The notes beneath the pieces were generated by a model. The model was given only the letters and a program-made list of their open reading frames with translations. It was not told the origin of the DNA and ran no database searches. This document shows positions 11,501-28,669 of a stretch of 64,000 bases of DNA, piece by piece (the first letter of the stretch is position 1; every line of letters starts with the position of its first letter). Source of the DNA: Roseibium sp. (GTDB lineage: Bacteria; Pseudomonadota; Alphaproteobacteria; Rhizobiales; Stappiaceae); NCBI GenBank assembly GCA_017643215.1, contig JAEPNV010000007.1, positions 62,001-126,000 on the forward strand. Reading direction: 5' to 3'. The position numbers and the translations under genes were made by a program.

Positions 11501-12456
11501 AGGGCATGCCCGGAGCGAATGTTGGCCGCATTTCCGGGCGCCCGGTTCGAGCCGAGTTTCGCGCTGGTCACGCCCCGGTTGCGCGGCGGAAGTCCTTCCT
11601 GGGCGCGAAGAAAATCATCAAGGGATTCCAGGCGGGAGACGTATTTCTGTTCCTGGGCCATGGCCCTGAAAAGCTCCGCGCGATTGGCGGGATCACTGAA
11701 ATGGGCCGGACCTTTGGCAAGCAGTTCTTCGATCTTCCGGCTCTTCTTTCCGGCAAATGCATTCATCTCATCCATGTAGCCGGTAACGTGTTCAGGTCCG
11801 ATCTTGGAGCCGTCCTTGGCACGGGAAATGCGCTCATATTGCGCGGCAAACCTGCTCTTGTAGGCATCGTTGTTCATGGCCGCGATCTCCCGGAACTCTT
11901 GAGGATCGGTGATCACATCGGGATCGGCCATGAAGTCGACATCGAGCTTGTTGTGCCAGGTGCTGCTGGCTTGAGGTGCTGAGTCTCTCAACGATTCTTT
12001 CAGATAGTCGTTGACACGTTTGTTGTAGCCCTCCTGCATCCGGCCGATCTGGTCCTTGCTGGTGACCTCCGTGATGTAGTCGGAATCGGTTCCTGGACTG
12101 AACGTGTCGGACGTACGTTCTTGCACAGTGAACCCGGCACCGGCTTCATCGGCGGCCGCTTTTGCAAATGCCTGGTTTCTGCGGTCATACAATCCCTGCG
12201 CCGCCAGATAGGAACCTTCGGGAATCTCATTATTTATGCGCGCGGCATTAACGGCGTCATTGTTTGCGAACAAGAGCGCTTCATCCTGAGCGGAAAAGGC
12301 ATCACTACCGATCCGGTCAAGCGCTTTGCGAACGTCCTCCATGAGGGTGGTTTGGGAGAAGACCGGGCCAGGTCCCACGATGGCCGCGCAAACCGCAAGC
12401 ACACAAATTACCACCAACGCGCGCGGTGATTTTATTCTGCTTGTGCCCCTGTCCAT
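8512..12456 (-). CDS. Very large exported protein with four C-terminal cysteine repeats, function unknown
   Basis: I do not recognise this 1314-residue protein. It starts with a Sec-type signal (LVVICVLAVCAAIVGPGPVFS, cleavage near residue 35), followed by about 1050 mostly helical, Ala/Arg/Glu-rich residues with likely coiled coils and scattered cysteines. From residue 1089 there are four related units of about 33-45 residues (near 1089, 1137, 1171 and 1211). Each has A-x3-C, then a spacer to an aromatic/A(V/L) strand, then DG(S/K)(F/Y)xC-R; units 1 and 4 add a second C-x2-C-x2-G-(Y/F) hook. The tail carries three more cysteines. No catalytic motif is apparent. The Sel1-repeat gene lies 63 bp upstream on the same strand, so the two probably form an envelope or secreted unit. 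Confidence 0.85.
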   Translation of the reverse strand: MDRGTSRIKSPRALVVICVLAVCAAIVGPGPVFSQTTLMEDVRKALDRIGSDAFSAQDEALLFANNDAVNAARINNEIPEGSYLAAQGLYDRRNQAFAKAAADEAGAGFTVQERTSDTFSPGTDSDYITEVTSKDQIGRMQEGYNKRVNDYLKESLRDSAPQASSTWHNKLDVDFMADPDVITDPQEFREIAAMNNDAYKSRFAAQYERISRAKDGSKIGPEHVTGYMDEMNAFAGKKSRKIEELLAKGPAHFSDPANRAELFRAMAQEQKYVSRLESLDDFLRAQEGLPPRNRGVTSAKLGSNRAPGNAANIRSGHALADAARMDALEDLAETMGQVAKKNPSFNANAADDIAKIVESLPPERRAGVLTRLRANGSPGLVEDIVDASRRAGRMPPGSSLADDVARAGSKFDEAADIANKLDDLADAGMGRRGLRAAITALEAIGKAADAVEVGVAAGQLMALFGKMDTALDPDTPPEQVSLLLEEIRRTANELRDSAALGAITQRYPLVAAVYGAWTVGCITTELATADSGIDPALLGESQNDSCLDRHTQALWRLSDELSGRAAVADANRAATCARLISAIKDGRLQMKEDWTVREACQWIRYGNPIDHMVERVPDRDVSSSPEDEDAVSSLTGQVEALLGEIESNVGLAENAIAGQNNACARLADLSSVGEGLDLETIQATIIAPSVEKARQTLSTIREGVRSAEILISAVQRSETRADEERARACGTANRQGERDTAMDAAVKARNHAVLAAQVGKRATSLGEAAIAAAKQTLPVPESLNEQILSKMTAVHKASRSACEQVSAIPETVFLTSEAIDALAKARSELAQLDAILNLEVLAAVAPDYRGRQAALAGRVNTAALHPMDAGCVAKFLGLKSACVRLPLVPALPPATQQALMEYQEAYAAVREQQQAAAIGLRQKLDKLPRVIDWAADHAEKARVCLEAITGPEEAEQAAKQEELTSLTGLLCSRSSISRRVEKLDAGVADSPEIDRFRERLLRMRNTIVDAETVLARSDAMVDTLKASQPEDLPRARFKVINIRRDVSGAIGALKAIPNPIDCGFLMDQLTQADRELGGLLDELQKKPETRQEAVNRCRRKYDDAFLKVKKTSSGGFSCQYCKTGYRPHASGQSCILTQEAANQRCEKANKGRGYYAVNFKADGSFSCRPTQATANRWCNANNRGSGWRAVNITDTGKFQCRQKVSQKDRRRQAEKACRAEAQRRGKVYALTQFNKDGSYRCRWCEPGFYYANGNCHARQQVRQKTPQRQQNGSGPLYLCTSCGAGSILGCTAGTPRRQHYSKWAIPGEDCRRVR

Positions 12457-14214: not shown

Positions 14215-14523
14215 CTAAAGCGGATGGGGCATAGATATACGGATGCCGTCGTTGCCGGGTCCCATAATGATCTGGCAGCAGAGACGCGACGTCGGTGCGA
14301 TATTGAATGCCACGTCCAGCATGTCCTCCTCACCTTCAAGCGGCGTTTCAAGCTTATCGAGCCAGGATTCGTCTACCCACACGTGGCATGTGGCACAGGC
14401 GAGTGACCCGTTACACTCTCCGTCCAAAATCCCCGCATTGCGCAGAACTTCCATGACCGATAGCCCTTCTTGCGCGGCGATTGTACGGGTGGACCCGTCG
14501 GCAAGGGTCACGTTAATCTGCAT
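14215..14523 (-). CDS. [2Fe-2S] ferredoxin, adrenodoxin/putidaredoxin type
   Basis: Small electron carrier of 102 residues. Cysteines C37, C43 and C46 (ECNGSLACATCH) and a fourth at C83 (LCCQI) give the C-x5-C-x2-C-x36-C spacing of vertebrate-type adrenodoxins; C82 is an extra neighbour. GEEDMLD matches the acidic helix used to dock redox partners in this class. It is the last gene of the long minus-strand operon, 3 bp after the amidase stop. The same operon encodes a ferredoxin-NADP reductase and a molybdopterin oxidoreductase, so it probably shuttles electrons between those two. Terminator not obvious in the 225 bp that follow. Confidence 0.93.
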   Translation of the reverse strand: MQINVTLADGSTRTIAAQEGLSVMEVLRNAGILDGECNGSLACATCHVWVDESWLDKLETPLEGEEDMLDVAFNIAPTSRLCCQIIMGPGNDGIRISMPHPL

Positions 14524-14526
14524 GTT

Positions 14527-15966
14527 CTATGCCTCCAGAAGTGGCGAACGCCGTTCGACGAGACCAAGAGCCGCTTCAAGAACTGCGCCGATCCGCAACA
14601 AACGCTCTTCGCTGCCAACCGGCCCTGCAATCTGCAATCCAATGGGTAATCCGCCTGGTTCGAAGCCGGCGGGAACCGCCAATGCCGGTTCGCCCGTCAT
14701 GTTGAAAATGTAGGTAAAGGGGCACCAGCGCCAATCATCGGGCAACTCGCCGGGCGGTGCTTCAGCGTCAATATCAAAGGCCGGCGACGGCATCACCGGC
14801 GCCAACACCGCGTCAAATTGGGTGAAAAAACTGCGACTTGCAGCAGCGATTTGAAGACGCTCGGCAATGGCGCGGTGATAGGTCAGGATATCGATCCGTC
14901 GTCCGCGTCCGGCGATCTCGTGAAGAAGCGGATCCATCTTGGCCGCAATGTCATCCGGATAGGTATCGAGGAATCCGGCATACGTCGCCTCCCAGAAGAC
15001 CATAAAGGGCCCAAAAGGATCCACAGGCCAAACGGGATCGGCTTCCGCAATGATGGCACCACGGGCCGCCAGCGCGTCAGCCGCGTTGAAGAGCGCGTCA
15101 ACGGTGCTTTCATCCGCAGTAGCGCGGGTGCCCAAGGTTCTGGACACCGCGATCCGCGACCCCTCGATAGAAGGATCCGCGGCTGCGGAGAGATTAAACG
15201 GGATGGGCCACGCATAAGGATCACGTGGTTCAGGGCCGGCCATCACAGACGTCATAAGGATCAGGTCTGCGACGCGGCGCGCCATCGGTCCAGTTACGGA
15301 ATGCGGCATGAACATGGTCGGCGGGTAGGACGGAACACGTCCGAAGCCCGGTTTCAGACCCGCGACATTGCAAAAAGCAGCCGGAATGCGAATAGAACCG
15401 GCGCCGTCCGTGCCAAGCGCCAATGTGCCCATTCCGAGAGCCAGGGCTGCGGCCGCGCCACCGCTGGATCCGCCCGGTGTTCGATCGAGGGCATAGGGAT
15501 TTCGGGTAACACCATGCACCTTGCTTCGGGTTACGATCCGCGATCCGGATTCCGGCGTGGACGTTTTGCCGAGGAAAACGGCACCGGCTTCCCGCAACCG
15601 CGCAACCGGCGGCGAATCCTCTGGTGAAGGAACAGCCGGATCCAGCGCCTCCGATCCGCGGCGCAATGGCCAACCGGCGACCGGGGCAAGATCCTTGATC
15701 GATGTCGGCACGCCATCGATGGGGCTCAACATCGCTCCCGTTCGATAGCGATCCTCCGCCGCGCGTGCCATCGATAGTGTCGTCGCCCGGTCAACATGCA
15801 CGAACGCATTGACCTCTGGATCAAAAGCGTCGATCCGATCGAGCGCCGCCTCCGCCGCATCTACGGGGCTGGCGGCACCCGACCTGAACAACGCCGACAA
15901 TTGCTCAACGCCAAGGTCGGCCAGATTACCGTCAGAGGTGTCCACTTCCGACAAGGGCAACATCAA
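14527..15966 (-). CDS. Amidase signature (AS) family amidohydrolase
   Basis: Hydrolyses a carboxamide bond through the Ser-cisSer-Lys triad. The triad is visible as K91 (TSIKDLAPVAG), cis-Ser in PGGSSGG (S167/S168) and nucleophile S191 in GTDGAGSIRIPA. Length (479 residues) is normal for cytoplasmic AS amidases. It overlaps the synthetase gene by 4 bp (ATGA). GatA of the Glu-tRNA amidotransferase belongs to the same family, but no gatB or gatC is present, so a catabolic amidase is more likely. In this operon it could release glutamate or ammonia from an amide intermediate, which is inference. Confidence 0.9.
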   Translation of the reverse strand: MMLPLSEVDTSDGNLADLGVEQLSALFRSGAASPVDAAEAALDRIDAFDPEVNAFVHVDRATTLSMARAAEDRYRTGAMLSPIDGVPTSIKDLAPVAGWPLRRGSEALDPAVPSPEDSPPVARLREAGAVFLGKTSTPESGSRIVTRSKVHGVTRNPYALDRTPGGSSGGAAAALALGMGTLALGTDGAGSIRIPAAFCNVAGLKPGFGRVPSYPPTMFMPHSVTGPMARRVADLILMTSVMAGPEPRDPYAWPIPFNLSAAADPSIEGSRIAVSRTLGTRATADESTVDALFNAADALAARGAIIAEADPVWPVDPFGPFMVFWEATYAGFLDTYPDDIAAKMDPLLHEIAGRGRRIDILTYHRAIAERLQIAAASRSFFTQFDAVLAPVMPSPAFDIDAEAPPGELPDDWRWCPFTYIFNMTGEPALAVPAGFEPGGLPIGLQIAGPVGSEERLLRIGAVLEAALGLVERRSPLLEA

Positions 15967-17348
15967 TACAGCTCGAAATACTCGGCCGTTTCGGCTGGCG
16001 GGATTTCATCTCGCAAACGGGCCGTCTCCTGCCATTTCATCGCAAGGTAGACCTTGATGAATTCTTCGCCGAGCAATTCGCACAGTGCCACATCGGCTTC
16101 AAGCGCTTCGAGTGCGTCCTCAATTGTGGTCGGCAATTTTTCGAACGCGTCGTTGTCCTCCTTCGGGCCTTGACCGGCTGGCACCAGCGCCCGCCTCTGG
16201 GTAACGCCCAGCAGGCCGGCGGCAATCACCGACGCCGAGACAAGATAGGGATTTGAGAGCGCCGAGGGGACACGCACCTCCAAATGCTGCGCCTGGTCGC
16301 GGCTCGCCTTGACACGCACGCTGGCGGATCGGTCCTGGACGCCCCAGGAGATATTGGAAGGCGCATAGGTGCGGGGACGGATACGCCGATAGCAATTGGG
16401 CGACGGGTTCCAGATCGCCATTGAAGCCCGGGCATGGTCAAGGATTCCCTGCACGAATGACTGCATCAGCGGGGACATGCCATTGTCCGGCTCCGGATCG
16501 AGAAACGCGTTTTGGCCCGTTTCCTTGTCGATCAAGGAGACATGGAAGTGTGAACAGCTACCCGAAAGCCCTTTGTAGGGTTTGGTCATGAACGTGGCCA
16601 GAAACCCTTGGGTCTTCATGTATTCCTTCACGGTGTTCTTGAAGATGAACGCCCGATCGGCGGCTGCCACGCCGTCGAGCGCCGAATAATTGATTTCAAC
16701 CTGGCCCGGACCGTGCTCGACATTGTAGGTGATGATGTCGATGCCGGTCTCTTCCAGGGTCCGAATCAGGGCGTCAACCGCCGGAAATTCATGCGTGCGG
16801 GCGGTGACAAAAATGGGTTGCCCGTTGAAGATGGGTTTCCGGCTCGCGGCGTCGACGAGATAAAACTCGTACTCGTGGCCCATCTTGACTGTGTAACCCA
16901 TGGAATCAGCGAGCATGAGCATCTTCTTCAAGAGCAGACGCGGTGTCGCCATTTGCGGTTTGCCGTCGTACCAGATCGTGTCGCAGATCACCCGACAGGT
17001 TTTGTTGAGCCACGGCACCGGCGTCAGCGTGTCCTCGTCAATCACCATGACGCAATCGGTGTAATTCATCTCCTCATTGTAGCCGGACTTGCGGACCGGG
17101 ATGGAATAGCTGTCGAGGGCCACCGTCCCGCCGTATAGATTGAGGCCCGAGCGCATGTAGGACCCGACATGGCCAATCGGGACAGTCTTGCCGCGGGACA
17201 ATCCGGCCATATCCGGAAACTCGAAACGGACATACTCGTAGCCGGCAGCGGCGATCTTTTCGACAAACGCTTCCGATCCATCCCGTGTCGCGAGACTTAT
17301 TTCCGGGACGGTATTGCTGTGTTGACTGAGATTTAAAGTGTCGAGCAT
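15963..17348 (-). CDS. Glutamine synthetase-family ligase (probable gamma-glutamyl-amine synthetase)
   Basis: ATP-dependent ligase of the glutamine synthetase fold, 461 residues. The N-terminal beta-grasp part has VRFEFPDMAGLSRGK. Metal and substrate residues are in GHEYEFYLVD, EHGPGQVEINY and SGSCSHFHVSL, and the nucleotide/glutamate site is in RRIRPRTYAPSNISWGVQDRSASVRV. The canonical GlnA adenylylation-site region is not recognisable near the C-terminus, and the gene lies in a catabolic operon, so I read it as a relative of PuuA, IpuC or AtdA1, which couple glutamate to an amine. It follows the class I amidotransferase gene by 32 bp, the same pairing seen in those pathways. The amine substrate is unknown. 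Confidence 0.87.
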   Translation of the reverse strand: MLDTLNLSQHSNTVPEISLATRDGSEAFVEKIAAAGYEYVRFEFPDMAGLSRGKTVPIGHVGSYMRSGLNLYGGTVALDSYSIPVRKSGYNEEMNYTDCVMVIDEDTLTPVPWLNKTCRVICDTIWYDGKPQMATPRLLLKKMLMLADSMGYTVKMGHEYEFYLVDAASRKPIFNGQPIFVTARTHEFPAVDALIRTLEETGIDIITYNVEHGPGQVEINYSALDGVAAADRAFIFKNTVKEYMKTQGFLATFMTKPYKGLSGSCSHFHVSLIDKETGQNAFLDPEPDNGMSPLMQSFVQGILDHARASMAIWNPSPNCYRRIRPRTYAPSNISWGVQDRSASVRVKASRDQAQHLEVRVPSALSNPYLVSASVIAAGLLGVTQRRALVPAGQGPKEDNDAFEKLPTTIEDALEALEADVALCELLGEEFIKVYLAMKWQETARLRDEIPPAETAEYFELY

Positions 17349-17380
17349 GGATCGTTCCTTTCCAGCACGGCGCGATGCAG

Positions 17381-18121
17381 CTAGCGGACTGAAGCAAGGC
17401 GGTCGGCGTTGATGAGGGACATGAGGTTCGTGTTGAGGCGCTCGGCGGTTGCCCGGTAAGCGGGCAGCCGGCGGTCGGTTTCAGCGACCAGCTTTGGGAT
17501 GTTTTCTTCGCCAACGGCCTCCTCCAGCGAGGCCTTGTAAGCCGGGATCTCACGCCATTCAGCGATTGTGCGATCCGTGATCTCCACGTGGTACTGCAGA
17601 CCATAGGCATGGCGCCGAAAACGGAACGCCTGGATGGCGCAAACTTCGTTTTCGGCCAGGATTGCCGCATCTTCCGGCAAGTCTGACACTTCGGCGGAGT
17701 GCCACTGAAACGTTTCTAGATCCGCGCTGATCCCGGCAAAAAACGGATCGGTCTGTCCTGCTGGGGTAAGCCGTGCGGGCGTCGGCCCAACCTCCGACCG
17801 GCGGCCCGGCGCAACCTTGCCGCCGATCGCCTCCGCGAGCAGTTGATGTCCAAGGCAGATCCCGAGAAACGGTCGCTCAAGGTCCAGCACCCAACGCCGG
17901 ATCGCCGACTTTTCCGGCAAAAGCCAGGGGTGGAGGTCAACATCCCAAACATCCATCGGCCCGCCCATCACGACCAGCAGGTCATAGGGCTCCAGCACCG
18001 GGATCGGGTCTCCAGCGTCGATTTCAATTGCATCCCAATCGAAGCCCGCATCGCTCCAGAACTCCCTGAAAACGCCCGGATGTTCGACATCGACATGCTG
18101 AAAGACAAGTATGCGCATCAT
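17381..18121 (-). CDS. Class I glutamine amidotransferase (possible gamma-glutamyl hydrolase)
   Basis: Cys-His-Glu amidotransferase of 246 residues. Catalytic C89 lies in GICLGHQLLAEAIGG, and H178 and E180 in GLQYHVEIT; the oxyanion segment is VVMGGPMDVWD. No synthetase domain is fused to it. ATG 18121 (a second ATG follows at 18118) is preferred over an upstream extension lying inside the neighbouring reductase gene, because a GAGG site sits directly before it. Beside a GS-type ligase, a stand-alone class I enzyme often hydrolyses gamma-glutamyl amides (PuuD) or assists gamma-glutamylation (AtdA2); either role fits here, and sequence alone does not decide. Confidence 0.85.
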   Translation of the reverse strand: MMRILVFQHVDVEHPGVFREFWSDAGFDWDAIEIDAGDPIPVLEPYDLLVVMGGPMDVWDVDLHPWLLPEKSAIRRWVLDLERPFLGICLGHQLLAEAIGGKVAPGRRSEVGPTPARLTPAGQTDPFFAGISADLETFQWHSAEVSDLPEDAAILAENEVCAIQAFRFRRHAYGLQYHVEITDRTIAEWREIPAYKASLEEAVGEENIPKLVAETDRRLPAYRATAERLNTNLMSLINADRLASVR

Positions 18122-18125
18122 GGCC

Positions 18126-19154
18126 TCAGGCGGTTTGGAAATGTTGGTTTTGCGTGGACACGGGCACACCACGCGTCGTTGAGTATTCGGAGTGCAAGGT
18201 TTTTCCGGGAAACACGCGCGCAAAGGCAGCGTTCGCGGCGGTGGCGGCTTCCGCAAAGCCGGTCAGGATCAAATTCAGCTTGCCCGGGTAACGTGCCACA
18301 TCACCAATGGCATAAATGCCCGACCGTGAGGTTTCGCAGGTCTTGGCATCGACTGGTATGGTTTTTCCGTCAATGTGAACGCCCCAGTCCGCGAGCGGCC
18401 CAAGGTCGCCGGACAGGCCGAAGAGCGCCAGCAGTGCGTCCGCACCAATGCGTTTAGCGTTGCCGCCGATCCGGCCGATATTTACCGCTCGGAGGTGTCC
18501 ATCCACACCGTCCAGCCCGACCAGCTGATAGGGCGTTTCAACCTGAATGCGAGGATCGGCTTGCATGGCGGCCACGGCGGCGGGAAGTGCGCGAAACGTG
18601 TCGCGTCGGTGAACCACCGTCACCGATTGTGCGACCTCGGCCAGCGACAAAGCCCAATCGACCGCGCTGTCACCGCCACCGGCGATCAACAACCGTTTTC
18701 CGGCGAACCTATCGCGCCGGCCAACATGGTAAAAGACACTCTTGTTCTCAAAGGCGCGAATGCCCTCGAGCGGCGGACGGTTGGGACCAAAAGCGCCTGC
18801 CCCGGCGGCCAGAAGAACGGCTCGAGCGAAGACCTTCCGGCTGCCGGATGTCGTGACAACGAAGGTGCCGTCTGAGGTCTCCGAGCACGCCTGCGCATGG
18901 TGCCCGAGGATGTAGTTCGGTTCATACGGCTCGGCTTGCGCCAACAGGTCGTCCACCAGGGCGTCCGCCCGTATTTTCGACCGGCCGGGAATGTCGTAGA
19001 TCGGCTTTTCCGGATAGAGCGCAGTCAATTGACCGCCCGGGTCGGCCAACCCATCGATGACCGCGGTCCGCATGCCGAGCTGACCGCAGGCGAACACGGC
19101 GAAAAGCCCGACGGGACCGGCGCCAACAATCGCTACATCGACATTGACGGTCAT
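18126..19154 (-). CDS. Ferredoxin-NADP(+) reductase, thioredoxin-reductase-like type
   Basis: FAD flavoprotein that moves electrons between NADP(H) and ferredoxin. The FAD Rossmann motif is AIVGAGPVGLFAVF (residues 8-21), the NADP motif is IAGGGDSAVDWAL, and the C-terminal block AIGDVARYPGKLNLILTGFAEAA is characteristic of the TrxR-like FNR family. The redox CxxC of true thioredoxin reductase is absent from the middle of the protein. It overlaps the oxidoreductase gene by 4 bp, and a ferredoxin gene ends the same operon, so a complete NADPH-FNR-ferredoxin-molybdoenzyme chain is encoded together. Confidence 0.92.
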   Translation of the reverse strand: MTVNVDVAIVGAGPVGLFAVFACGQLGMRTAVIDGLADPGGQLTALYPEKPIYDIPGRSKIRADALVDDLLAQAEPYEPNYILGHHAQACSETSDGTFVVTTSGSRKVFARAVLLAAGAGAFGPNRPPLEGIRAFENKSVFYHVGRRDRFAGKRLLIAGGGDSAVDWALSLAEVAQSVTVVHRRDTFRALPAAVAAMQADPRIQVETPYQLVGLDGVDGHLRAVNIGRIGGNAKRIGADALLALFGLSGDLGPLADWGVHIDGKTIPVDAKTCETSRSGIYAIGDVARYPGKLNLILTGFAEAATAANAAFARVFPGKTLHSEYSTTRGVPVSTQNQHFQTA

Positions 19155-21187
19155 TCGGCAGCCTCCTGGACGACCAGATCGACCTCCATCGAATGGACGC
19201 AGGTTGCTTCGCCGATATCGCTTTTTTCACCCTTGTGAAGGACGTTGATGTTGGAGGCAGAGGGCTCGGCATTCGGCCAACGGCCCTTGTAAACAACGCC
19301 CATCCCCGGCTGGGTGAGTTCACTCACGTCAACGGTGACGGGCAAACTGCCGACATCATTTGCCAGGGTAACCTTATCTCCGGTCTTTAGACCGCGAGCA
19401 GTCGCATCGTGAGGATGAACAAGAACCAGGATTTTGCCGATCTGGCGTTGAACACCCCGATCGTTTGCGTAGGACGAATTCATCTGCCACTTGGATGCCG
19501 GTGACAGGATCCTCAGCCGCCCCGGTGCGGTCTGTTCGTCCGCGTGGGGCTCGGGTACACGAGGTAACCCGTCGGCTTCAGCCGTCTCGGAAGCGATCTC
19601 GATTTTCCCTGATGGTGTTGGAAAGCCATCCGGAAACTGCATGCGTGGTTTGTCGAAAACCTGAACCGTACCCGCCTTCGCAAGCTCGGCAAAGCCTCCA
19701 CGATACGGTGTCATCGCAAGAATACGGGACAACAGTTCGTCATCACTCTCGTGAAGAAGCGGTTCTTCAAGGCCCATTTTTGAGGCCAGACGCCGGAAGA
19801 TTTCCTGATTGGGCAACGCGTCGCCCGGCGGATCTTGGATTTTCACCTGCGCAGACAGAGTGTGGTGGAAATAGGGTGCGACGATATCGTCGAACTCGAG
19901 AAAATTTGCCGCCGGAAGAACGATATCTGCATACGCAACGGTGTCGGTCGGGAAGACGTCGCAGGTGACCGTGAAAAGGTCCTCGCGTTCCAGCGTTTTC
20001 CGAAGGCGCCCTTGATCGGGCGACGAGGCAAGCGGGTTGCAGTTCCACGTGAATAAGGCAGCCGACCGGTCGCCGTCTTCAAGGGTTGCGGCAAGATCCA
20101 TGTGGCTGACCGACGATGTGCCCTGGGCCACGTGGGCCGCAGTTGCCGAATCCATATCGATGCCGCGAGTGCCTGGCCCGTTCATGTAACAATACCCGGT
20201 GCCCGGCTTTCCGATCTGGCCCGTCCCAGCAACAAGCGCCAGGATGGACCGAAACGCATTTCCGCCACGCGCAGTGCGCTGCATTCCCTGCCCAAGCCAA
20301 ATCATGGACGGCCCTTTGGCGAAGGCGATCCCAGTCTCAATGACTTGTTCGGGTGTCAGGCCGGTTTTTCCGGCTGTCGTTTCCGGATCTGCGGCATCAA
20401 CATCAGCTTCGATTTCCTCAAAGCCTTTCACAGTGTTTTCGATAAACTCCCGATCGAGCAGCTGATGCGTTTTGGCAACGTGGAGCAGCCCGAAGGCGAG
20501 CGCTGCATCTGTACCCGGGCGGAGCTGCAAATGGGTTTCGGCGATGTCTTGGGCGGTCCCGGTCACAATCGGATCGATCACAATCACTTTTGCTGTTGCA
20601 TCGCGCAGCCAGGCTTTGTGCATGTGCGGCGCCGAATGTGACGGGTTCGCCCCCCAAACCAAAATGGTTGCGGCATCCTTCAACGTTTCAGGATCAAATC
20701 CATCCAGTGAATCGCCGACCGTATAGTCAAGTGCGAGGTGTCCCGCCTTGTTGCAAACCGTGTCCGGATCGACTTCCGTAGCACCAATATGGGAGAAGAA
20801 CCGAAGGGGATACCAGCCGGCAATCAGACCAACTGTTCCGGTGTAGTGCGCATGAACAATTGTGTCATGTCGCCCTCCGTCGATAATCTCCTTTAGCCGG
20901 CTTGCTATAGTTCCAAGCGCTTTGTCCCAGGAGATCGGCTCGAAGGCTCCCTCGCCCTTTTTGCCGGTCCTTTTCAGCGGCCGTGTCAAACGATTGTTCG
21001 GTTGGCGCCAAACCCCGTTGTAGGCGATAGCGCATTTTCCGCACAAGACGCCCTTTGCAATGTGATGATCCGGATCGCCGAGGATCTTGCGAACGTGTCC
21101 ATCGTCGACGGCCGCCACAATTCCGCAGGCGTCATAGCAATCCCGAGGACACGTGGTCTTGATCATCTTGCGAGTTGGCTTGGACAT
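19151..21187 (-). CDS. Molybdopterin oxidoreductase with N-terminal [4Fe-4S] motif
   Basis: Cytoplasmic bis-MGD molybdo- or tungsto-enzyme of the DMSO reductase family, 678 residues. A 4Fe-4S site is formed from C13, C17, C21 and the C49/C52 pair (CPRDCYDAC and GVLCGKC). C145 in DPDTVCNKAGHLAL sits where the metal-ligand cysteine is found in several anaerobic-dehydrogenase-like members. The C-terminal MGD-binding domain contains SPASKWQMNSSYANDRGV and HPHDATARGLKTGDKV. There is no Tat signal, so it works in the cytoplasm. No second-subunit or membrane-anchor gene is nearby; electrons most likely pass through the ferredoxin and reductase of the operon. The oxidised substrate is unknown. Confidence 0.88.
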   Translation of the reverse strand: MSKPTRKMIKTTCPRDCYDACGIVAAVDDGHVRKILGDPDHHIAKGVLCGKCAIAYNGVWRQPNNRLTRPLKRTGKKGEGAFEPISWDKALGTIASRLKEIIDGGRHDTIVHAHYTGTVGLIAGWYPLRFFSHIGATEVDPDTVCNKAGHLALDYTVGDSLDGFDPETLKDAATILVWGANPSHSAPHMHKAWLRDATAKVIVIDPIVTGTAQDIAETHLQLRPGTDAALAFGLLHVAKTHQLLDREFIENTVKGFEEIEADVDAADPETTAGKTGLTPEQVIETGIAFAKGPSMIWLGQGMQRTARGGNAFRSILALVAGTGQIGKPGTGYCYMNGPGTRGIDMDSATAAHVAQGTSSVSHMDLAATLEDGDRSAALFTWNCNPLASSPDQGRLRKTLEREDLFTVTCDVFPTDTVAYADIVLPAANFLEFDDIVAPYFHHTLSAQVKIQDPPGDALPNQEIFRRLASKMGLEEPLLHESDDELLSRILAMTPYRGGFAELAKAGTVQVFDKPRMQFPDGFPTPSGKIEIASETAEADGLPRVPEPHADEQTAPGRLRILSPASKWQMNSSYANDRGVQRQIGKILVLVHPHDATARGLKTGDKVTLANDVGSLPVTVDVSELTQPGMGVVYKGRWPNAEPSASNINVLHKGEKSDIGEATCVHSMEVDLVVQEAAE

Positions 21188-21213
21188 CTTAGGCCTCTGG
21201 TTTTGAAGGTCAG

Positions 21214-22314
21214 TTAATCAATCCGGCGTCCAGTGCTTCGATCGAAGGCAAGAACACGGTCGAGCGCGAGTTCGACCCCGACTGTTGCACCACGCGAAAA
21301 CGCTTGCGCCTTTGCCGCGGAAAGGGTCGCCCGAAGTTGAATTTCGCTGGCCTTTAGCGTCACTGCGGACCGCATGCCGAGCGGCTCGATATCCAAGACC
21401 TCAGCACGAATCGCACTATTATTTGGATGTTCGATTCGAATGTGCTCCGGTCGAATCCCGGCTTCGAACTCGCCATCGATGTCTGCAAATCCGGGAGCTG
21501 TGATAAAACTGGCGCCTAGGAGGTCCAAACGACGGTCGGACATCGTGGCACACGCTGTCGCTGGTATCAGGTTGATCTCGGGTGCACCGACAAACCGGGC
21601 CACGTCCCGGTCCGCCGGCGCATCGTAGATATCCTGCGGACTTGCGACCTGACGGACTTCACCATCAACCAGCATCACAATGGTATCCGCGACAGCAAGC
21701 GCTTCCTGGAAATCGGGTGTGGCCAGCAGGAAAGAGTAGCCATGCTCCTGTTGAAGCCGTTTCAATTCGGTTCGCAGCTCGACACGGAGCATGGCATCGA
21801 GGCTTGACAGTGGCTCGTCGAGCAAAAACAACTTCGGCTCACGAACCAGAGCCCGGCCAAGGGCCACCCGTTGACGTTCGCCGCCACTCATGGTCTTCGG
21901 CAGACGCTTCAGCACGTGACCAATTCGCAAAGTACCGGCAACCGCATGCACCCGCTGATCGATGGCGTCGCGGGGCACGTTCCGGACCTTCAGGGGATTT
22001 GAGACGTTCTCATAGCCGGTCTTATTCGGATAGAGTGCGAGATTGTCGAAGATCATCGCAACGTCACGGTCCTTGGGCTGCAGGCCGTCAGCATCCACGC
22101 CGTTCAAGAGCACTGAACCTTCATCGGTATCTTCCAGGCCCGCGGCGATCCGCAACGTGGTTGTTTTGCCTGCTCCCGCCGCTCCAAGAAGGACGACAAA
22201 TGCGCCTGAGGGAACGTTAAGGCTCACATTCTTCAATGCCGGCCTGTTTCCAAACGATCGAGACACTCCGCTCATGTGCAACGCGGCGGCCGAGGTGGTC
22301 GAATGCGCGTTCAT
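21214..22314 (-). CDS. ABC importer ATPase (MalK/UgpC type) with altered H-loop
   Basis: Nucleotide-binding subunit of the operon's CUT1-type importer, 366 residues. Walker A is GAAGAGKTT, the signature TMSGGERQRVALGRAL and Walker B FLLDEPLSSLD are canonical, but the switch histidine of the H-loop (normally THDQ) is replaced: the segment reads LLATPDFQEALAVAD. A C-terminal TOBE/OB region follows (EFEAGIRPEHIRIEH). It is paired with a second, different ATPase encoded directly upstream with a 4-bp overlap, pointing to a heterodimer. Altered H-loops usually mean one ATP site hydrolyses slowly or not at all. Confidence 0.9.
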   Translation of the reverse strand: MNAHSTTSAAALHMSGVSRSFGNRPALKNVSLNVPSGAFVVLLGAAGAGKTTTLRIAAGLEDTDEGSVLLNGVDADGLQPKDRDVAMIFDNLALYPNKTGYENVSNPLKVRNVPRDAIDQRVHAVAGTLRIGHVLKRLPKTMSGGERQRVALGRALVREPKLFLLDEPLSSLDAMLRVELRTELKRLQQEHGYSFLLATPDFQEALAVADTIVMLVDGEVRQVASPQDIYDAPADRDVARFVGAPEINLIPATACATMSDRRLDLLGASFITAPGFADIDGEFEAGIRPEHIRIEHPNNSAIRAEVLDIEPLGMRSAVTLKASEIQLRATLSAAKAQAFSRGATVGVELALDRVLAFDRSTGRRID

Positions 22315-23432
22315 GCCGCGGCTCCCAGTATCGGGGAAAGCGACAGGTTTCGATCTGTCTCGCCGGAAAACAAAACGATGTGGTCGGCAGGAATTCGAAG
22401 GACGACTTCGTCGCCCCTTGCCGGGCGATCCGCTGCTGGCACAACGACATCTAGGCTCTTGTTTCCAGATCTCACCGTGACAATGGCTTCAGGCCCACGC
22501 GGCTCGACCGATGACACAATGCCGGTCACGCCCGGATGTCCGGGACGGGTGATCATTATGTTCTCTGGGCGTATCCCGAAGATGACAGGCTCGCCGTGAC
22601 CAGGCGCAACACCCGCAAACCGGCTGGGAAGCGGAACCTGTAATTGATCGGAAATGAAAGAAATAGCCGGCCCGTCGCGGCGGATTTCGCCGCGAACCAG
22701 ATTCATCGATGGGGAGCCGATGAAACCGGCGACAAAGACATGCGCCGGATCACCATAAACCGTTGATGTGCGATCGTATTGCCGGATCTTGCCGGCGCTC
22801 ATGACGGCGATCCGATCGGCAAGGGAAAGCGCTTCGGTCTGATCGTGCGTTACGTAGATGATGGTGAGCCCGATCTTACCCTGAAGACGGCGCAACTCCC
22901 GCCGCATCGCCTGACGTGCCTCCGCTTCCAAGTTCGACAGGGGTTCGTCAAGAAGCAAGATCGCAGGCTGTGTTACGAGTGTCCGCCCGATCGCGACCCG
23001 CTGAAGCTGCGACCCGCCAAGATATGCCGCTTTTTCCTTGAGCAGGCTGGAAAGCCCCAGGAGTTCAGCCGCCTCTCCGACCCGGCGCGTGATTTCGCTG
23101 CGCGGAAGACCGCCGATTTCAAGCCCAAAGGAGAGGTTTTTTGCGACTGTCATATGGGTGAAGACGGCATAGTCCTGGAACACAAGGCCGATATTCCGTT
23201 TGCCAGGCGCCAAGCCGATGACCGAACGGCCATCGATATGGATGTCGCCGGCTGTCGGCTCTTCCAGACCAACAATCATATTGAGGGTGGTGGACTTGCC
23301 GCAGCCTGACGGACCAAGCAGTGCGACAGTTTCGCCGCGTTCGACGGTGAGGTCGATGCCATCCACGGCGACCACATCCCCGCCGTCATACTCCTTGCGC
23401 AGTGCGACAAGCTCGAGTTTGGGCTGGGTCAT
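22311..23432 (-). CDS. ABC importer ATPase (MalK/UgpC type) with altered signature motif
   Basis: Second nucleotide-binding subunit of the importer, 373 residues. Walker A GPSGCGKSTT, Walker B LLLDEPLSNLE and the H-loop YVTHDQTEALSLAD are intact, whereas the usual LSGGQ signature reads YLGGSQLQRVAIGRTL. The C-terminal TOBE region has FGIRPENIMITRP. Together with the neighbouring ATPase the two sequences complement each other: one keeps the hydrolytic residues and the other keeps the signature, so a heterodimer would have one consensus and one degenerate ATP site. The gene overlaps the permease gene by 4 bp. Confidence 0.9.
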   Translation of the reverse strand: MTQPKLELVALRKEYDGGDVVAVDGIDLTVERGETVALLGPSGCGKSTTLNMIVGLEEPTAGDIHIDGRSVIGLAPGKRNIGLVFQDYAVFTHMTVAKNLSFGLEIGGLPRSEITRRVGEAAELLGLSSLLKEKAAYLGGSQLQRVAIGRTLVTQPAILLLDEPLSNLEAEARQAMRRELRRLQGKIGLTIIYVTHDQTEALSLADRIAVMSAGKIRQYDRTSTVYGDPAHVFVAGFIGSPSMNLVRGEIRRDGPAISFISDQLQVPLPSRFAGVAPGHGEPVIFGIRPENIMITRPGHPGVTGIVSSVEPRGPEAIVTVRSGNKSLDVVVPAADRPARGDEVVLRIPADHIVLFSGETDRNLSLSPILGAAA

Positions 23433-24289
23433 CGTTTCACCGCTCCAAATGTCATGCCGCGCGCAAGATGGTTCTGGATGAGGAAACCGGCGATCACGAG
23501 CGGAATCATAGCCAGAACGGCGAGTGCAGCCTGGACGCCATAAAGTGTGCCTGCCGTGGCAGTCACATATTTGGCGAGGCGGACGGGAATGGTTTCAATC
23601 GTGGTGTAGGAAAGCACCAGAGCGAAAAGAAACTCGGACCAGTTGAGGATGAAGATGAACAGCGTGGTCGCGAACAACCCGCCCTTGATCAGAGGGATCG
23701 TGACGGTCAAATGGGCTTTAACCCGGGTCATCCCGTCAATCATTGCCGCTTCTTCAACCTCCTTCGGCACTTCGTCCACGAAGCTTTTCAGCATCCAAGT
23801 GGAGAAGGGCAGCGTGACGGCAATGTAAATTGCAATCAGCCCGAAGTAGGTGTCGATCAGTCCGATCGTCGAAAATATAATTACGAATGGCACGGCAATA
23901 GCCGCCGGAGGAAACATCCGGCCGGAGAGAATGACCAGGGGTGTCGCGCGTCCGCCGCCGCTGTATCGGGAAATGGCGATGGCCGCGGCAAGGCCGATGC
24001 CGACGGACAAAGCGGTCGCGACAATTGACGCCAGCAAGGAACCGAAGACAGCCTGCGTCGCCGCTTCACTCACGCCGCCAACCCCATAAACCCCAAGAGC
24101 TTCGGGATCGAACAACGTGCGGAAGTTCACCAGCGTCGGTTCGCCAGGCACCCAAATCGCCGGGACGGCGTTCCAGTCGGTGGGCGGTTTGATGGCGGTC
24201 ATCACGATCCAGAAGACGGGGAACAGAGTGACGATCACAGCCAGCGCCAAAACCAGAGCGAGCGGCATGGTAAGCGGACGGTCGGACAT
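23429..24289 (-). CDS. ABC importer permease (CUT1/MalG type)
   Basis: Inner-membrane channel subunit of 286 residues with about six hydrophobic segments. The cytoplasmic EAA loop that contacts the ATPase is EEAAMIDGMTRVKAHLTVTIPL. ATG 24289 makes a TGATG junction with the preceding permease stop; a longer open frame upstream is a shadow inside that permease gene. The C-terminal NHLARGMTFGAVKR is typical of MalG-type partners. It functions with the permease, two ATPases and Tat-dependent binding protein of the same operon. Confidence 0.92.
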   Translation of the reverse strand: MSDRPLTMPLALVLALAVIVTLFPVFWIVMTAIKPPTDWNAVPAIWVPGEPTLVNFRTLFDPEALGVYGVGGVSEAATQAVFGSLLASIVATALSVGIGLAAAIAISRYSGGGRATPLVILSGRMFPPAAIAVPFVIIFSTIGLIDTYFGLIAIYIAVTLPFSTWMLKSFVDEVPKEVEEAAMIDGMTRVKAHLTVTIPLIKGGLFATTLFIFILNWSEFLFALVLSYTTIETIPVRLAKYVTATAGTLYGVQAALAVLAMIPLVIAGFLIQNHLARGMTFGAVKR

Positions 24290-25257
24290 CAGCCGCGTGC
24301 CTCCAGGAGCTGATTGCGCACCGGAGTGAGCAAAAGATGGACAAGACCGAGCGTTCCGATCAGCACAAGAAACGCGGCTGCAGCGCCGTAGGCGAGCTGA
24401 AAATCGTTGAAGGCGAGCTTGTAGATGTAAAGACTTATGGTTTCGGTCGACGAGCCGGGTCCCCCACGGGTCAACATGAACACTTCGTCGAAGAGCTTGA
24501 TGATTTCCATCGCGCGTATGACGAACGCAATCACGATCACCGGCAGCAGCATCGGCAGCACCACGCGCCAGAACACCTGTCGCGGGTTGGCGCCCAGAAT
24601 GACGGCAGCGCGAACCGGATTTTCCGGGACGGCGTTGAGACCGGAGAGCAGGATCAGGAAGAACAACGGCGTCCAGTGCCAGACTTCCGTGACCACAACC
24701 GTGATTTGGGCTGAAATTGCGCTTTTGAACCAATCGGGCGCAGCCCCTGCCCCGAGCGTGAGTTCAATCAGTTGATTGATCGGCCCATTCGATTGAAAGA
24801 GCATCCAAAACGTGTAGCCAACCACGACGGGCAGCACCATCATCGGCGTCAGCAGCATCGAAAACAGCAAAGCCTTGCCGCGAAACCGTCTCAGAAAAAG
24901 AACCGCGAGACCCAGTCCGATCAAAAACTCAAGCGACAAGCATACGACACCGAAGACAAGCGTCCGCAGCACGGCCTCGACAAATCGCGTGTCATAAACA
25001 AGTAGTTCCTCATAGTTGAACAACCCGATGAACTGGGCGGATGAAAGCGCACCGCGGGTCGGGGACCAATCGGTGAAGCTCATGTAGAACGCCACAAGCA
25101 GGGGAACGACCAGGACAAAAAGCGAGATCAACTGGCCGGGCAGGAGCAGCGTTCTGCCGAGCGCCTTGCGGCGTGTACCGCGCTTTTTCACCGCGTCCTT
25201 GGATGGAGCGGCCGGCAACGATACGTCGGAAGGTGCAATATCGGAGTGCGCGGTCAT
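24289..25257 (-). CDS. ABC importer permease (CUT1/MalF type)
   Basis: First permease of the operon, 322 residues, with an N-terminal cytoplasmic tail rich in Lys/Arg, about six membrane segments starting near residue 37 (TLLLPGQLISLFVLVVPLLVA), and an EAA-type loop (AVPENPVRAAVILGANPRQVFWRVVLPML) whose EAA reads RAA. The tail and the FMLTRGGPGSSTETISLYIYKLAF stretch are typical of MalF-like subunits. It lies 90 bp from the binding-protein gene, with a strong hairpin in between. Confidence 0.92.
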   Translation of the reverse strand: MTAHSDIAPSDVSLPAAPSKDAVKKRGTRRKALGRTLLLPGQLISLFVLVVPLLVAFYMSFTDWSPTRGALSSAQFIGLFNYEELLVYDTRFVEAVLRTLVFGVVCLSLEFLIGLGLAVLFLRRFRGKALLFSMLLTPMMVLPVVVGYTFWMLFQSNGPINQLIELTLGAGAAPDWFKSAISAQITVVVTEVWHWTPLFFLILLSGLNAVPENPVRAAVILGANPRQVFWRVVLPMLLPVIVIAFVIRAMEIIKLFDEVFMLTRGGPGSSTETISLYIYKLAFNDFQLAYGAAAAFLVLIGTLGLVHLLLTPVRNQLLEARG

Positions 25258-25303
25258 CGGTTCACCGGGTGAGGATTGGGCGTCATGGCAACAGGATTAA
25301 GGT

Positions 25304-25336
25304 GCCGATCGTGACCCGCTGCGGGCCACGATCGGC
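25304..25336 (-). terminator. Intercistronic hairpin after the binding-protein gene
   Basis: Inverted repeat with ten paired bases, one mismatch and four more pairs around a three-base loop (arms 25304-25318 and 25322-25336). It begins 11 bp beyond the stop codon of the binding-protein gene in the transcript direction and no T-run follows, so it looks like an mRNA-stabilising or partial-attenuation element rather than a full terminator. That such elements raise binding-protein levels is known from malE-malF; its action here is inference. Confidence 0.6.
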
Positions 25337-25347
25337 GCGCCAGGGTG

Positions 25348-26907
25348 TTACACCCAGCCGTCCGCCCCGCTGGCCTTCTTGATTGGGCCGGCAAGGTTTT
25401 TGGCGAGAGCCATCCACGATGCCTTGACCTTGTCGCGTCCAACGCGGCGGGTGATGCGGTCGACCGAACGGGCCGCATCATCGAGCGCTTCTTTGGGCGA
25501 CTTGGCGCCGGTCATGCAGGCATGGATCTCCTTGTCGAGAGCATCCTGGTATTCGAAGCCACCCGGCAAACAGAAGTCCGGCACGGTGTTGACCATATTG
25601 TCGTACAATGTCTCCAGATACGGGGTGCCATAGGTATCGACGAGCCGCGGCGTCGGATCCTTCATGTGGTTCACCCGATAAGGATCAGAGTAACCTCCAA
25701 GATAGGGAATGGCATCAGCGCCGATTGTCGGCGATGTCATCCATTGCGCATAGGCATAAGCAAGTTCGGGATTGGCCGAATATTTTGACACCGCATAGCC
25801 GTAGCCCCAGCAGAACAGCCCGGCGTGGAGTTCCGTTCCATCGGCGAGTGTGTCTGAAGGCATGACCGTCGCTGCGATTTTGCCGTGTGTCGCCGGACCG
25901 GTCTTCGGATTCATCGAGTACTTATAGCCCGATGGCCAGACGATGTTCATGAAGCCCTCGCCGCGGCCGAACGAATTGTAGTTCGATGACCAGGTGAAAG
26001 AAAACGCATCGGGATGGAGATATGCGTTCATTGCGAGCATGTCTTCGAGGGCGGCAAGGCCTTCATCCGAGTTGAACGTCGGGTTCATATCGCCGTCGAA
26101 ATACAGGCGGCCTTTTGACATCAACCGCTGCATAAACATCCACTTCACATAGTACCGGGAACGATATTCCAGGCTTCCGAAGAAATTGTTCTCCGGATCA
26201 TGCATGAACGAAGCGATTTCGTAATACTGTTTCCAGGTTTTCGGCATCGTCAGCGGATAACCGAATTTGTCCTCGAACTCCTTGGCCTTGGCTTCGATAT
26301 AGTCGCCGCGCCCGATCAACGTGATCTGATCGCCGTCATTCAACAGACCGGCAACGCGGCCGTTGTAGAGTTGCGCGTGGTGGCTTGCCGGAAAGACAAC
26401 GCCAAAATCGGGATTGAACAGTTCCGGATTGTAGGTCTCCGTCCATTCCGTGAGATCGTAGATGACGCCGGAATCGATCCAGTCCGGGTAGGACATGGCG
26501 GTCGGCATCATCACATCATAGCGGCCGGTCTTTGCGACCGCTTCCTGCATGCCTTTCGTGTGAACAACCTCATCCGGCTCTTCGATGAACTCAAGCGCAA
26601 TGCCCAGTTCGTTTTGCCACTTGTCGACATAAGGTGTCATGTTGCCGATTGATCCTGTCGGGATCAAAAGCGTGAGGGTCTTCTTTTCAGCCTTGGCGGC
26701 CATTTCCTTTGCAAGTTCCCACGCCCGTTCCTCCGGCCCCGCGATGGCGGCAAGCGCCTTCGATGCACCGAGCGGCGACTGAACGATAAAGTTGGCAACT
26801 GCGGTCGACACGCCGAGCGCCGCCATCCGCGACATGAATGTACGCCGGCTTATACTTCCTACATCCAATTTTGTGGCCTCAGACTGGAGTTTATCTCTAT
26901 TTGACAT
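25348..26907 (-). CDS. Tat-exported extracellular solute-binding protein (family 1)
   Basis: Periplasmic receptor of the importer, 519 residues, longer than typical sugar-binding proteins. The N-terminus has a twin-arginine motif (ISRRTFMSRMAALGVSTAVANFIV), so the protein is probably exported folded by Tat. The mature part has the cluster 1 solute-binding pattern (LIPTGSIGNMTPYVDKWQNELGI; KTGRYDVMMPTAMSYPDW; YAYAQWMTSPTIGADAI). It opens the 12.7-kb operon and faces the MocR regulator gene. CUT1-type importers mostly carry sugars, but the enzymes downstream suggest an amine, amide or N-containing solute; ligand unknown. Confidence 0.88.
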   Translation of the reverse strand: MSNRDKLQSEATKLDVGSISRRTFMSRMAALGVSTAVANFIVQSPLGASKALAAIAGPEERAWELAKEMAAKAEKKTLTLLIPTGSIGNMTPYVDKWQNELGIALEFIEEPDEVVHTKGMQEAVAKTGRYDVMMPTAMSYPDWIDSGVIYDLTEWTETYNPELFNPDFGVVFPASHHAQLYNGRVAGLLNDGDQITLIGRGDYIEAKAKEFEDKFGYPLTMPKTWKQYYEIASFMHDPENNFFGSLEYRSRYYVKWMFMQRLMSKGRLYFDGDMNPTFNSDEGLAALEDMLAMNAYLHPDAFSFTWSSNYNSFGRGEGFMNIVWPSGYKYSMNPKTGPATHGKIAATVMPSDTLADGTELHAGLFCWGYGYAVSKYSANPELAYAYAQWMTSPTIGADAIPYLGGYSDPYRVNHMKDPTPRLVDTYGTPYLETLYDNMVNTVPDFCLPGGFEYQDALDKEIHACMTGAKSPKEALDDAARSVDRITRRVGRDKVKASWMALAKNLAGPIKKASGADGWV

Positions 26908-27108: not shown

Positions 27109-27163
27109 CAGAGCCATTTTGAGATAATTTGAACGAAATTGGCCCTGATACGTGGAATACCGG

Positions 27164-28669
27164 ATGGCGCGGACCGGCTCTTTGGGAACGCTCGTTTCTG
27201 TTGATTTGGATCGGGAGGCGGAGGTTCCGATCCACGAACAGATCGCAGACGCCTTGCGCCAGGCGGTGGCGGCTGGCCACCTGCAAAATGGCACCCGCCT
27301 ACCCTCCACCCGAGCCCTCGCCCGGGACTGGGGCGTCTCCCGAAACACGGTCATGCATGTTTTCGATACACTGACTGGGGAAGGGCTCCTGGCGTCACGT
27401 GTCGGCGCGGGCACCTACATTGCCGCCAATCAGCAAGCAGATGATGAAGATGACGGAGCAGCGACACCGGTCGCGCCTTCGCCGGCCAGCACCGGCTATC
27501 CCTTTCGAAGATTGTCTGCGCGCGGAAGAAACCTGGTCACCCAAAGCACGGGCGCACTTACGGAAAAGCCCACTCCCTTTATGCCCGACGTTCCGGATCT
27601 GAAGTCGTTTCCGATGCGGTCTTGGCTGCGGCTGATGAATGAGGTGACGGGCCGATTGAAGGGCAACATTCTCGTTAACGTCACGAACGCAGGCTATGAA
27701 CCTCTGCGTGAGGCGATCGTTCACCACCTTAAAGTCACCCGCAAAGTCGATTGTCACACCGATCAGGTCATCATCACGACAGGATCTCAGCAAAGCCTTG
27801 ACCTTGTGAGCCGGCTGTTACTTGAAAGAGGCGATCCGGTCTGGATAGAGGAACCCGGCTACATTGGCACACGCGCGACTTTGATCGCGAACGGATGCAC
27901 GGTCTATCCGGTTCAAACAGATCACGACGGCATCAACATCGAGACTGGCCAACGCTCTTTTCCCGCGCCGCGCATGATCGTGACATCGCCGGCGCGCCAC
28001 TATCCGCTCGGCGGGCGGATGACGCCCGCGCGCAGATCACAAATCCTCGCATATTCCAGAGACTCAGGTGCTTGGATCCTGGAGGACGATTATGACTGCG
28101 AGTTCATATACAAGGGGGGAATTCGTTCAGCGATCAAAAGCCAGGACTCTGAAGACCGGGTCATCATGATAGGAACGTTTTCAAAAACGCTTCTACCGTC
28201 ATTCCGGCTTGGTTTTGTGGTCGCCCCCAAAGATCTCGCGGTCGATTTTGCCCGCGCCAGGGCTGTGATTGACCGGCATGCACCAATTCTTGAGCAGATG
28301 GTATTGGCGGAATTCATGCATCGCGGCCTCTATGCTGCTCATCTGCGGCATATGCGCGAGTTGTACCAATCCCGTCAGGCTTGCATGGTGTCGGTCCTAA
28401 AGGCGACCGTCGGGTACCAGCCTCCAACGCTGGAACTGGAAAGCGGTATGCATATTGTCTTGCCGTTAAAGGACGAAGTGGATGACCGGGACGTTTCCAT
28501 GACGCTTTGGGAGCGGGGGGCGACAGCGAGACCTTTGTCGATCTATTATTCTTCGAAAGCGAAACGGAAGGGACTTCTCCTTGGTTTTGCGGCGTTTCAA
28601 GCATCAGATATCCACAGCCATGGCCCTCGCCTGACACCGCTGGAGACTTTGGTCAACCGCGCGGACTGA
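27164..28669 (+). CDS. MocR-family regulator (GntR HTH fused to aminotransferase fold)
   Basis: Transcription factor with an N-terminal GntR winged helix (VPIHEQIADALRQAV ... LPSTRALARDWGVSRNTVMHVFDTL) linked to a fold-type I aminotransferase domain that binds PLP. The PLP-lysine region FSKTLLPSFRLGFVV is present, as is DDYDCEF. MocR proteins sense amines, amino acids or PLP derivatives (GabR, TauR, PdxR, EnuR), matching the amine-like chemistry suggested by the divergent operon it probably controls. ATG 27164 is given; GTG 27152 is an alternative four codons upstream. Confidence 0.9.
   Translation: MARTGSLGTLVSVDLDREAEVPIHEQIADALRQAVAAGHLQNGTRLPSTRALARDWGVSRNTVMHVFDTLTGEGLLASRVGAGTYIAANQQADDEDDGAATPVAPSPASTGYPFRRLSARGRNLVTQSTGALTEKPTPFMPDVPDLKSFPMRSWLRLMNEVTGRLKGNILVNVTNAGYEPLREAIVHHLKVTRKVDCHTDQVIITTGSQQSLDLVSRLLLERGDPVWIEEPGYIGTRATLIANGCTVYPVQTDHDGINIETGQRSFPAPRMIVTSPARHYPLGGRMTPARRSQILAYSRDSGAWILEDDYDCEFIYKGGIRSAIKSQDSEDRVIMIGTFSKTLLPSFRLGFVVAPKDLAVDFARARAVIDRHAPILEQMVLAEFMHRGLYAAHLRHMRELYQSRQACMVSVLKATVGYQPPTLELESGMHIVLPLKDEVDDRDVSMTLWERGATARPLSIYYSSKAKRKGLLLGFAAFQASDIHSHGPRLTPLETLVNRAD

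Follow-up and report, generated by a model that had tools for sequence, protein, structure and literature searches.

Why should a molybdopterin oxidoreductase be encoded in a single operon with the enzymes of a gamma-glutamylation cassette? The question is raised by a 64,000-nucleotide stretch of Roseibium sp. DNA (GenBank assembly GCA_017643215.1, contig JAEPNV010000007.1, positions 62,001 to 126,000; hereafter the window), in which 11 genes occupy the minus strand between 26907 and 14215, consecutive ones being separated by -4 to +90 nucleotides (nt). They encode an ATP-binding cassette (ABC) importer, a molybdoenzyme (MopB), a ferredoxin-NADP+ reductase (FNR), a class I glutamine amidotransferase-like hydrolase (GATase), a glutamine synthetase-like (GS-like) ligase, an amidase and a [2Fe-2S] ferredoxin. 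Coordinates, strand and domains agree with the preliminary description of the locus as one contiguous minus-strand unit, and its gene content confirms that the molybdoenzyme is, FNR and ferredoxin aside, the only redox catalyst encoded there. All of the genes named in that description are present, and to them must be added a divergent MocR-type regulator, which it had omitted and which belongs to the unit. Routes through gamma-glutamyl intermediates are known for putrescine and isopropylamine; in the Puu route of E. coli, which passes through gamma-glutamyl amides, the ligase PuuA makes the start and the GATase-fold hydrolase PuuD the end. Such routes are also described for aniline and naphthylamine (PMC11335346). 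The window unit brings together the same Puu-type trio: a ligase, a redox enzyme and a protein with the fold of a gamma-glutamyl hydrolase. Glutamylation routes are themselves known, but a glutamylation cassette joined to a molybdoenzyme is probably undescribed, as no account of a GS-GATase-MopB unit was found among the titles and abstract openings listed in searches of the open-licence literature.

The operon is conserved as a whole. Roseibium sp. MMSF_3544 is the nearest named relative that carries it, and there the locus L016 has the identical 11-gene order with the divergent MocR gene, its products being 92% (solute-binding protein, SBP), 91% (GS), 87% (permease A), 80% (MopB), 74% (amidase), 73% (GATase), 68% (FNR) and 68% (ferredoxin) identical to those of the window. 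The same order is found in G072, a genome of another family, where the operon is split into halves on two contigs that end inside MopB and FNR: one (L043) carries MocR and the genes from SBP (87% identical to that of the window) through MopB, and the other (L132) carries FNR, GATase, GS (81%), amidase and ferredoxin. Because the 11-gene order and MocR recur in L016 and as halves in G072, the operon is beyond chance; MocR lies opposite it in L016, L043 and also in L114, a Rhizobium plasmid locus discussed below. The genes past the ferredoxin vary among the window, L016 and G072, and we therefore place the end of the unit at the ferredoxin. Three genomes from two families thus share the order while differing in what flanks it downstream. 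The operon is also rare. A search of 347 genomes of the order at E 1e-120 gave an SBP match in two, that of the window counted, and among 81 genomes (the window genome and 80 relatives) a MopB of more than 75% identity is confined to that of the window and to G032 and G072.

A tree of 22 GS proteins unites the window GS with those of L016 and L114 in a 100/100 group, nested in a 100/100 clade of nine rows; three genomes in this clade have a GS that adjoins glutamate-synthase-like (Mgs-like) genes, named by eye. Outside the clade, E. coli GlnA forms a 100/100 pair with the window genome's own GlnA, which is encoded on a different contig. On this tree the window GS does not group with GlnA, the placement that the preliminary description had singled out as speaking against its proposal. 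PuuA and the two Rieske-linked GS rows, whose genes lie beside Rieske genes, fall in yet other clades, and for that reason a substrate cannot be transferred from them to the window GS; one further row, from locus L107, sits on a long branch and its position is unsure. At the active site, Y328 of the window GS aligns with the Glu of the YEAP motif, both in the GlnA of E. coli and in the genome's own, and the base of the Glu flap is thus replaced. The catalytic Glu of this flap is described as Glu304 in B. subtilis GS and as a Trp in RhGmaS (PMC7948447). Glu357 of StGS is named for the same flap and reported as lost in amine ligases (PMC11335346); the EVR-motif Glu, which we took as this residue, is kept in all 22 rows including those of amine type, and the number in that paper may mean another residue. 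The window GS scored below cut-off with both the GlnA model (242.7 bits, cut-off 429) and the GmaS model TIGR03105 (250.3 bits, equivalog cut-off 469.6); of the six matches to TIGR03105 in its own genome none exceeded the cut-off. Its best solved sequence match is NpaA1 (8wwu). The phylogeny suggests that the protein is an amine-type enzyme with predicted ligase activity.

MopB falls into the dimethyl sulfoxide (DMSO) reductase superfamily, with PF04879, PF00384 and PF01568 in order and all above cut-off. No export signal was seen by eye, and the [4Fe-4S] motif reads C13-x3-C17-x3-C21-x27-C49. C145 is present in all 32 aligned rows (31 distinct genes), an alignment made without L043, L070, L072, L073, L074, L077, L079, L080, L092, L096, L106 and L111 and for which three of 14 distant loci (L020, L022, L025) yielded no row. 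This residue aligns with what we take to be the Mo-ligand Cys of thiosulfate reductase and is a candidate Mo ligand; the structure model holds no cofactor. An alternative without any protein ligand to Mo, suggested by a phmmer alignment that set a Gly opposite the selenocysteine of formate dehydrogenase (FDH), was dropped in view of the thiosulfate reductase alignment and the invariance of C145. The active-site Arg of FDH, presumably R333 of FdhF, aligns with N336, an Asn in 21 of 21 rows of the clade, and the FDH model TIGR01591 gave 241.5 bits against a cut-off of 666; among the matches listed, none of 25 curated models reached its cut-off. MopB shares with FDH, NapA and TorA the fold, the order of cofactor domains and the [4Fe-4S] motif, but differs from them in sequence (~22% identity in structural alignments), in having N336 at the position of the FDH Arg and in its FNR and ferredoxin neighbours. 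Structural comparison also showed that the fold does not tell reductases from dehydrogenases.

The remaining genes of the unit (Table 1) show catalytic motifs at several points. The GATase, whose open reading frame (ORF) is overlong as listed, has the triad Cys89-His178-Glu180 (numbered from MMRIL), kept in 7 of 7 aligned family copies, and the Lys/cis-Ser/Ser motifs of the amidase were found as KDL, GGSSGG and GAGSIR. The closest solved structure to the FNR by sequence is the ferredoxin-NADP reductase 5ygq (E 1.8e-81, phmmer), and the ferredoxin matches 3hui (E 8.4e-24) and putidaredoxin (1.6e-20). Permease B was placed from the start at MSDRPLTM, read in frame within a listed 434-amino-acid (aa) ORF. 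Elsewhere in the window, a 1314-aa open frame at 8512-12456 on the minus strand, downstream of a Sel1-repeat gene, had no Pfam match at E 0.001. The genome measures 5.0 Mb.

Table 1. Genes of the operon and its divergent regulator in the window.
Feature	Position	Strand	Evidence
Solute-binding protein (SBP), 519 aa, twin-arginine (Tat)-type N-terminus (SRRTFMSRM, by eye)	25348..26907	-	PF01547, 59 bits
ABC permease A	24289..25257	-	PF00528, 64 bits
ABC permease B	23429..24289	-	PF00528, 45 bits
MalK/UgpC-like ATPase 1	22311..23432	-	PF00005, TOBE_2, OB_MalK
MalK/UgpC-like ATPase 2	21214..22314	-	PF00005, TOBE_2
MopB, DMSO-reductase-superfamily molybdoenzyme	19151..21187	-	PF04879/PF00384/PF01568
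TrxR-like ferredoxin-NADP+ reductase (FNR)	18126..19154	-	PF07992; 5ygq match
Class I GATase-like hydrolase	17381..18121	-	PF00117
GS-like ligase	15963..17348	-	PF00120, 287 bits
Amidase-signature hydrolase	14527..15963	-	PF01425, 322 bits
[2Fe-2S] ferredoxin, putidaredoxin/adrenodoxin type	14215..14523	-	PF00111
Divergent MocR-type regulator (GntR helix-turn-helix + aminotransferase-like domain)	27152..28669	+	PF00392 + PF00155

Compared with established systems, the unit is familiar in part. The Puu cluster (PuuA, PuuB, PuuC, PuuD; L112) likewise has a GS-like ligase and a GATase-fold hydrolase, but its redox steps are those of an oxidase and an aldehyde dehydrogenase, it has no molybdoenzyme, ferredoxin or ABC importer, and the window GS lies outside the PuuA clade. 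The AtdA and NpaA systems share with the window a GS-like ligase, a glutamine amidotransferase (GAT)-like protein and a redox enzyme. In those systems the redox enzyme, a Rieske dioxygenase rather than a MopB protein, is described as acting on the glutamylated amine, and the GAT of the aniline and 1-naphthylamine systems as hydrolysing the adduct back to the amine (PMC11335346). The N-methylglutamate pathway employs GmaS, a GS-family ligase for methylamine (PMC7948447, PMC5520151). GS rows related to that of the window adjoin Mgs-like genes, which recalls this pathway, whereas the sub-cut-off score with TIGR03105, the lack of Mgs and Mgd genes in the unit and the retention of Asp50' set the window apart from it. 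Plasmids carry further arrangements of the same kind. In Microbacterium sp. YJN-G (L116:5293-13375), genes for a GATase, an APC permease, a GS and a short-chain dehydrogenase/reductase are followed by those for a gamma-glutamyl-GABA hydrolase-family protein, a cytochrome P450, a ferredoxin and a reductase, by gene content seemingly a P450 version of the glutamylation cassette. A plasmid of Stutzerimonas combines a GS with a Rieske oxygenase and a reductase. With P450 and Rieske enzymes, supplied by electron chains of this sort, in the same slot on plasmids, a molybdoenzyme at this place would be a sensible swap.

Searches of four genome sets (81 related genomes, 385 of the class, 397 of the order and 398 of the phylum), together with named contigs, supplied relatives of MopB (48-68% identity). 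Neighbourhoods were counted over 29 loci with a MopB frame, the window included, several being from one genus and some on short contigs; L043, one of 30 loci entered, was dropped as its MopB is incomplete, and three loci were not entered, namely L070, which is a further copy within G161, and L092 and L096, whose contigs measure ~3.5 kb. Neighbours were assigned to a family at >=28% identity over 60% of length. The GATase of L102 begins ~85 nt, and that of L104 ~81 nt, past the end of MopB; in both loci MocR is divergent. Since the MopB tree groups both with L103 and separates them from the window, L016 and L017, the MopB-GATase link either arose twice or was lost in between. In L107, MopB lies 3' of a GmaS-type ligase that exceeds the TIGR03105 cut-off (645.7 against 469.6), at a gap of 5 or ~55 nt depending on the start chosen, and the permease upstream of this ligase exceeds that of the trimethylamine N-oxide (TMAO) permease model NF053774 (734.7 against 690). 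Four loci of another genus (L042, L101, L106, L111) have a TMAO-permease-family gene and an aminomethyltransferase-like gene ~6-8 kb from MopB; the L042 permease scored 807.5 with the TMAO-permease model, and the other three were assigned because they are 47-50% identical to the L107 protein. In four species, all of one genus, MopB and a dimethylglycine-dehydrogenase-like gene lie tail to tail. The aminomethyltransferase-like and dimethylglycine-dehydrogenase-like names were given by eye, neither matching NCBIfam at E 1e-60, and the remaining MopB loci had no such amine-related partner in these neighbourhood scans. These partners hint, weakly, at methylated or other small amines as the substrate class. 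The word amine in the preliminary description is fair; nothing was found that points to the N-heterocycle offered there beside it.

Other features of the MopB relatives were noted. In L042 and L101 the interval from MopB to the TMAO-permease-family gene is occupied by a Liv-type ABC transporter set, recognised by eye. At L111:9064-11078 (G617) MopB is divided over two frames, by gene decay or sequencing error. For G276 and G418 a broken MopB was considered and rejected, as their frames are open over 674 and 681 aa and the stop inside the match is the terminal one; the G617 copy is the only split one. More distant relatives (38 and 35% identity) occur on plasmids of Streptomyces (L047) and Agrobacterium vitis (L048) within a common cluster for an iron-containing redox enzyme, a 2-oxoglutarate-Fe (2OG-Fe) protein, a dapF-annotated epimerase and an aldo/keto reductase, which looks like a shared uncharacterised biosynthetic set.

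The account that we favour, tentatively and at somewhat short of an even chance, is that of an inducible catabolic operon through which a small amine is imported and gamma-glutamylated, with a redox step by a ferredoxin/FNR-coupled molybdoenzyme, release by GATase and amidase, and control by MocR. The ABC importer would take a small amine-bearing solute into the cell, and the GS-like ligase would use ATP to couple glutamate to its amine. MopB, linked to NADP(H) via ferredoxin and FNR, would perform the redox step, acting either on the solute itself or on its gamma-glutamyl adduct. Hydrolysis of the gamma-glutamyl amide would fall to the GATase and cleavage of a second amide to the amidase, the two freeing glutamate and product, and MocR would detect the amine or a product. 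We infer each of these reactions, their order, the direction of the electrons and the substrate. This account is supported by the occurrence of MopB-GATase and MopB-GS neighbourhoods in separate lineages, and by the FNR and ferredoxin that follow MopB in L017, a Methylobacterium metagenome-assembled genome (MAG), as well. A more specific version, which we consider rather unlikely, would have MopB replace the flavin, Rieske or P450 enzyme and dehydrogenate or hydroxylate the gamma-glutamyl amide independently of oxygen, electrons passing via ferredoxin and FNR to NADP+, in a role partly shared by the wider alphaproteobacterial MopB clade.

Several observations weigh against the favoured account. 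Only five of the 29 loci (window, L016, L017, L102, L104) have a GATase within 8 kb of MopB, the same five that have a MocR of the same family, and only three have a GS there (window, L016, L107); FNR is likewise found in three (window, L016, L017). Two neighbours fell outside the family criteria and are not counted: in L071 a truncated GS (45%) at ~7.4 kb from MopB, and in L076 a MocR (29%) at ~2.7 kb. A neighbourhood search of the kind put forward in the preliminary description returned MopB-GATase and MopB-GS pairs in separate lineages, at a minority of loci. The unit contains no aldehyde dehydrogenase or downstream carbon pathway. The window GS keeps the Asp50-equivalent (D46), as do PuuA and the Rieske-linked rows, while Asp50' is reported as lost in the amine ligases RhGmaS (PMC7948447) and NpaA1 (PMC11335346). 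Plasmid pRACO34Ab of Rhizobium sp. ACO-34A (CP021374, L114) has the importer, GATase, GS, amidase, ferredoxin and MocR in the same order, with MopB and FNR absent exactly between the second ABC ATPase and GATase (identities to the window: SBP 79%, GS 73%, GATase 56%, MocR 51%, amidase 51%, ferredoxin 43%). In L017, MopB, FNR and ferredoxin stand together and MocR and GATase, also together and with the GATase on the far side of MocR, are divergent from MopB; neither GS nor amidase was found within the 22,010 bases examined of the 30,089-base contig. Taken together, L114 and L017 indicate two separable modules, importer-GS-GATase-amidase-ferredoxin and MopB-FNR, and that all of these genes serve one pathway, as the preliminary description had it, is still something we infer. 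The genes missing from either locus may sit elsewhere in those genomes. The L114 operon differs further in an extra glyA (serine hydroxymethyltransferase) at its end (L114:18256-19539), a possible hint that the product is glycine or a one-carbon compound, and L017 has nitrile hydratase alpha, beta and activator-like genes, named by eye, ~6 kb from MopB-FNR-ferredoxin (L017:2193-3905).

This modularity invites the explanation that MopB and FNR were inserted into an older amine-glutamylation operon and share with it a promoter only; they would then work on a different compound or have a housekeeping redox role. The L114 operon, which lacks precisely these two genes, the 24 of 29 MopB-clade loci without a GATase within 8 kb and the gene content of L017 all fit such an insertion. 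However, MopB-GATase neighbourhoods occur in two separate clades, MopB adjoins a different type of GS in L107, and the MopB and FNR genes of the window overlap by 4 nt; we judge two unrelated modules to be distinctly unlikely. FNR and putidaredoxin-type ferredoxins commonly pass electrons to an acceptor, and this is one ground for a different alternative, in which MopB is a reductase: NADPH, FNR and ferredoxin would feed the reduction of an N-O or S-O bond, for example in an amine oxide or hydroxylated amine, and the freed amine would then be glutamylated. The L107 operon, in which MopB accompanies a TMAO-permease-model protein and a GmaS-type ligase, is consistent with this direction, as are the TMAO-permease-family gene ~6 kb from MopB in the other genus, the invariant Cys at the candidate Mo position and the missing FDH-type Arg. 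Yet the permease name is a family assignment only, the fold fails to separate reductases from dehydrogenases and 26 of the 29 MopB loci have no FNR of this type within 8 kb. A reductive MopB is a possibility to be kept in mind, albeit an unlikely one.

Far less credible, in fact very improbable, is that the operon serves general nitrogen scavenging and that its GS is simply a glutamine synthetase of the usual kind or a duplicate of one. Such an enzyme would share the GS catalytic fold, the Asp50-equivalent and the EVR-motif Glu that the window protein retains, but the window clade stands apart from GlnA, a Tyr takes the place of the Glu-flap base, the genome has a GlnA of its own that pairs with that of E. 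coli, and the score with the GlnA model is well under its cut-off.

To conclude, if MopB does act on a glutamylated amine, breakdown of amines through gamma-glutamylation could dispense with oxygen as well as with flavin oxidases and Rieske enzymes, and an unassigned clade of alphaproteobacterial molybdoenzymes would gain its first testable function. Nature has already provided variants of the system, namely L114 without MopB, L017 without a GS and L107 with MopB beside a GmaS-type ligase, and these offer the comparisons through which the substrate may be found.

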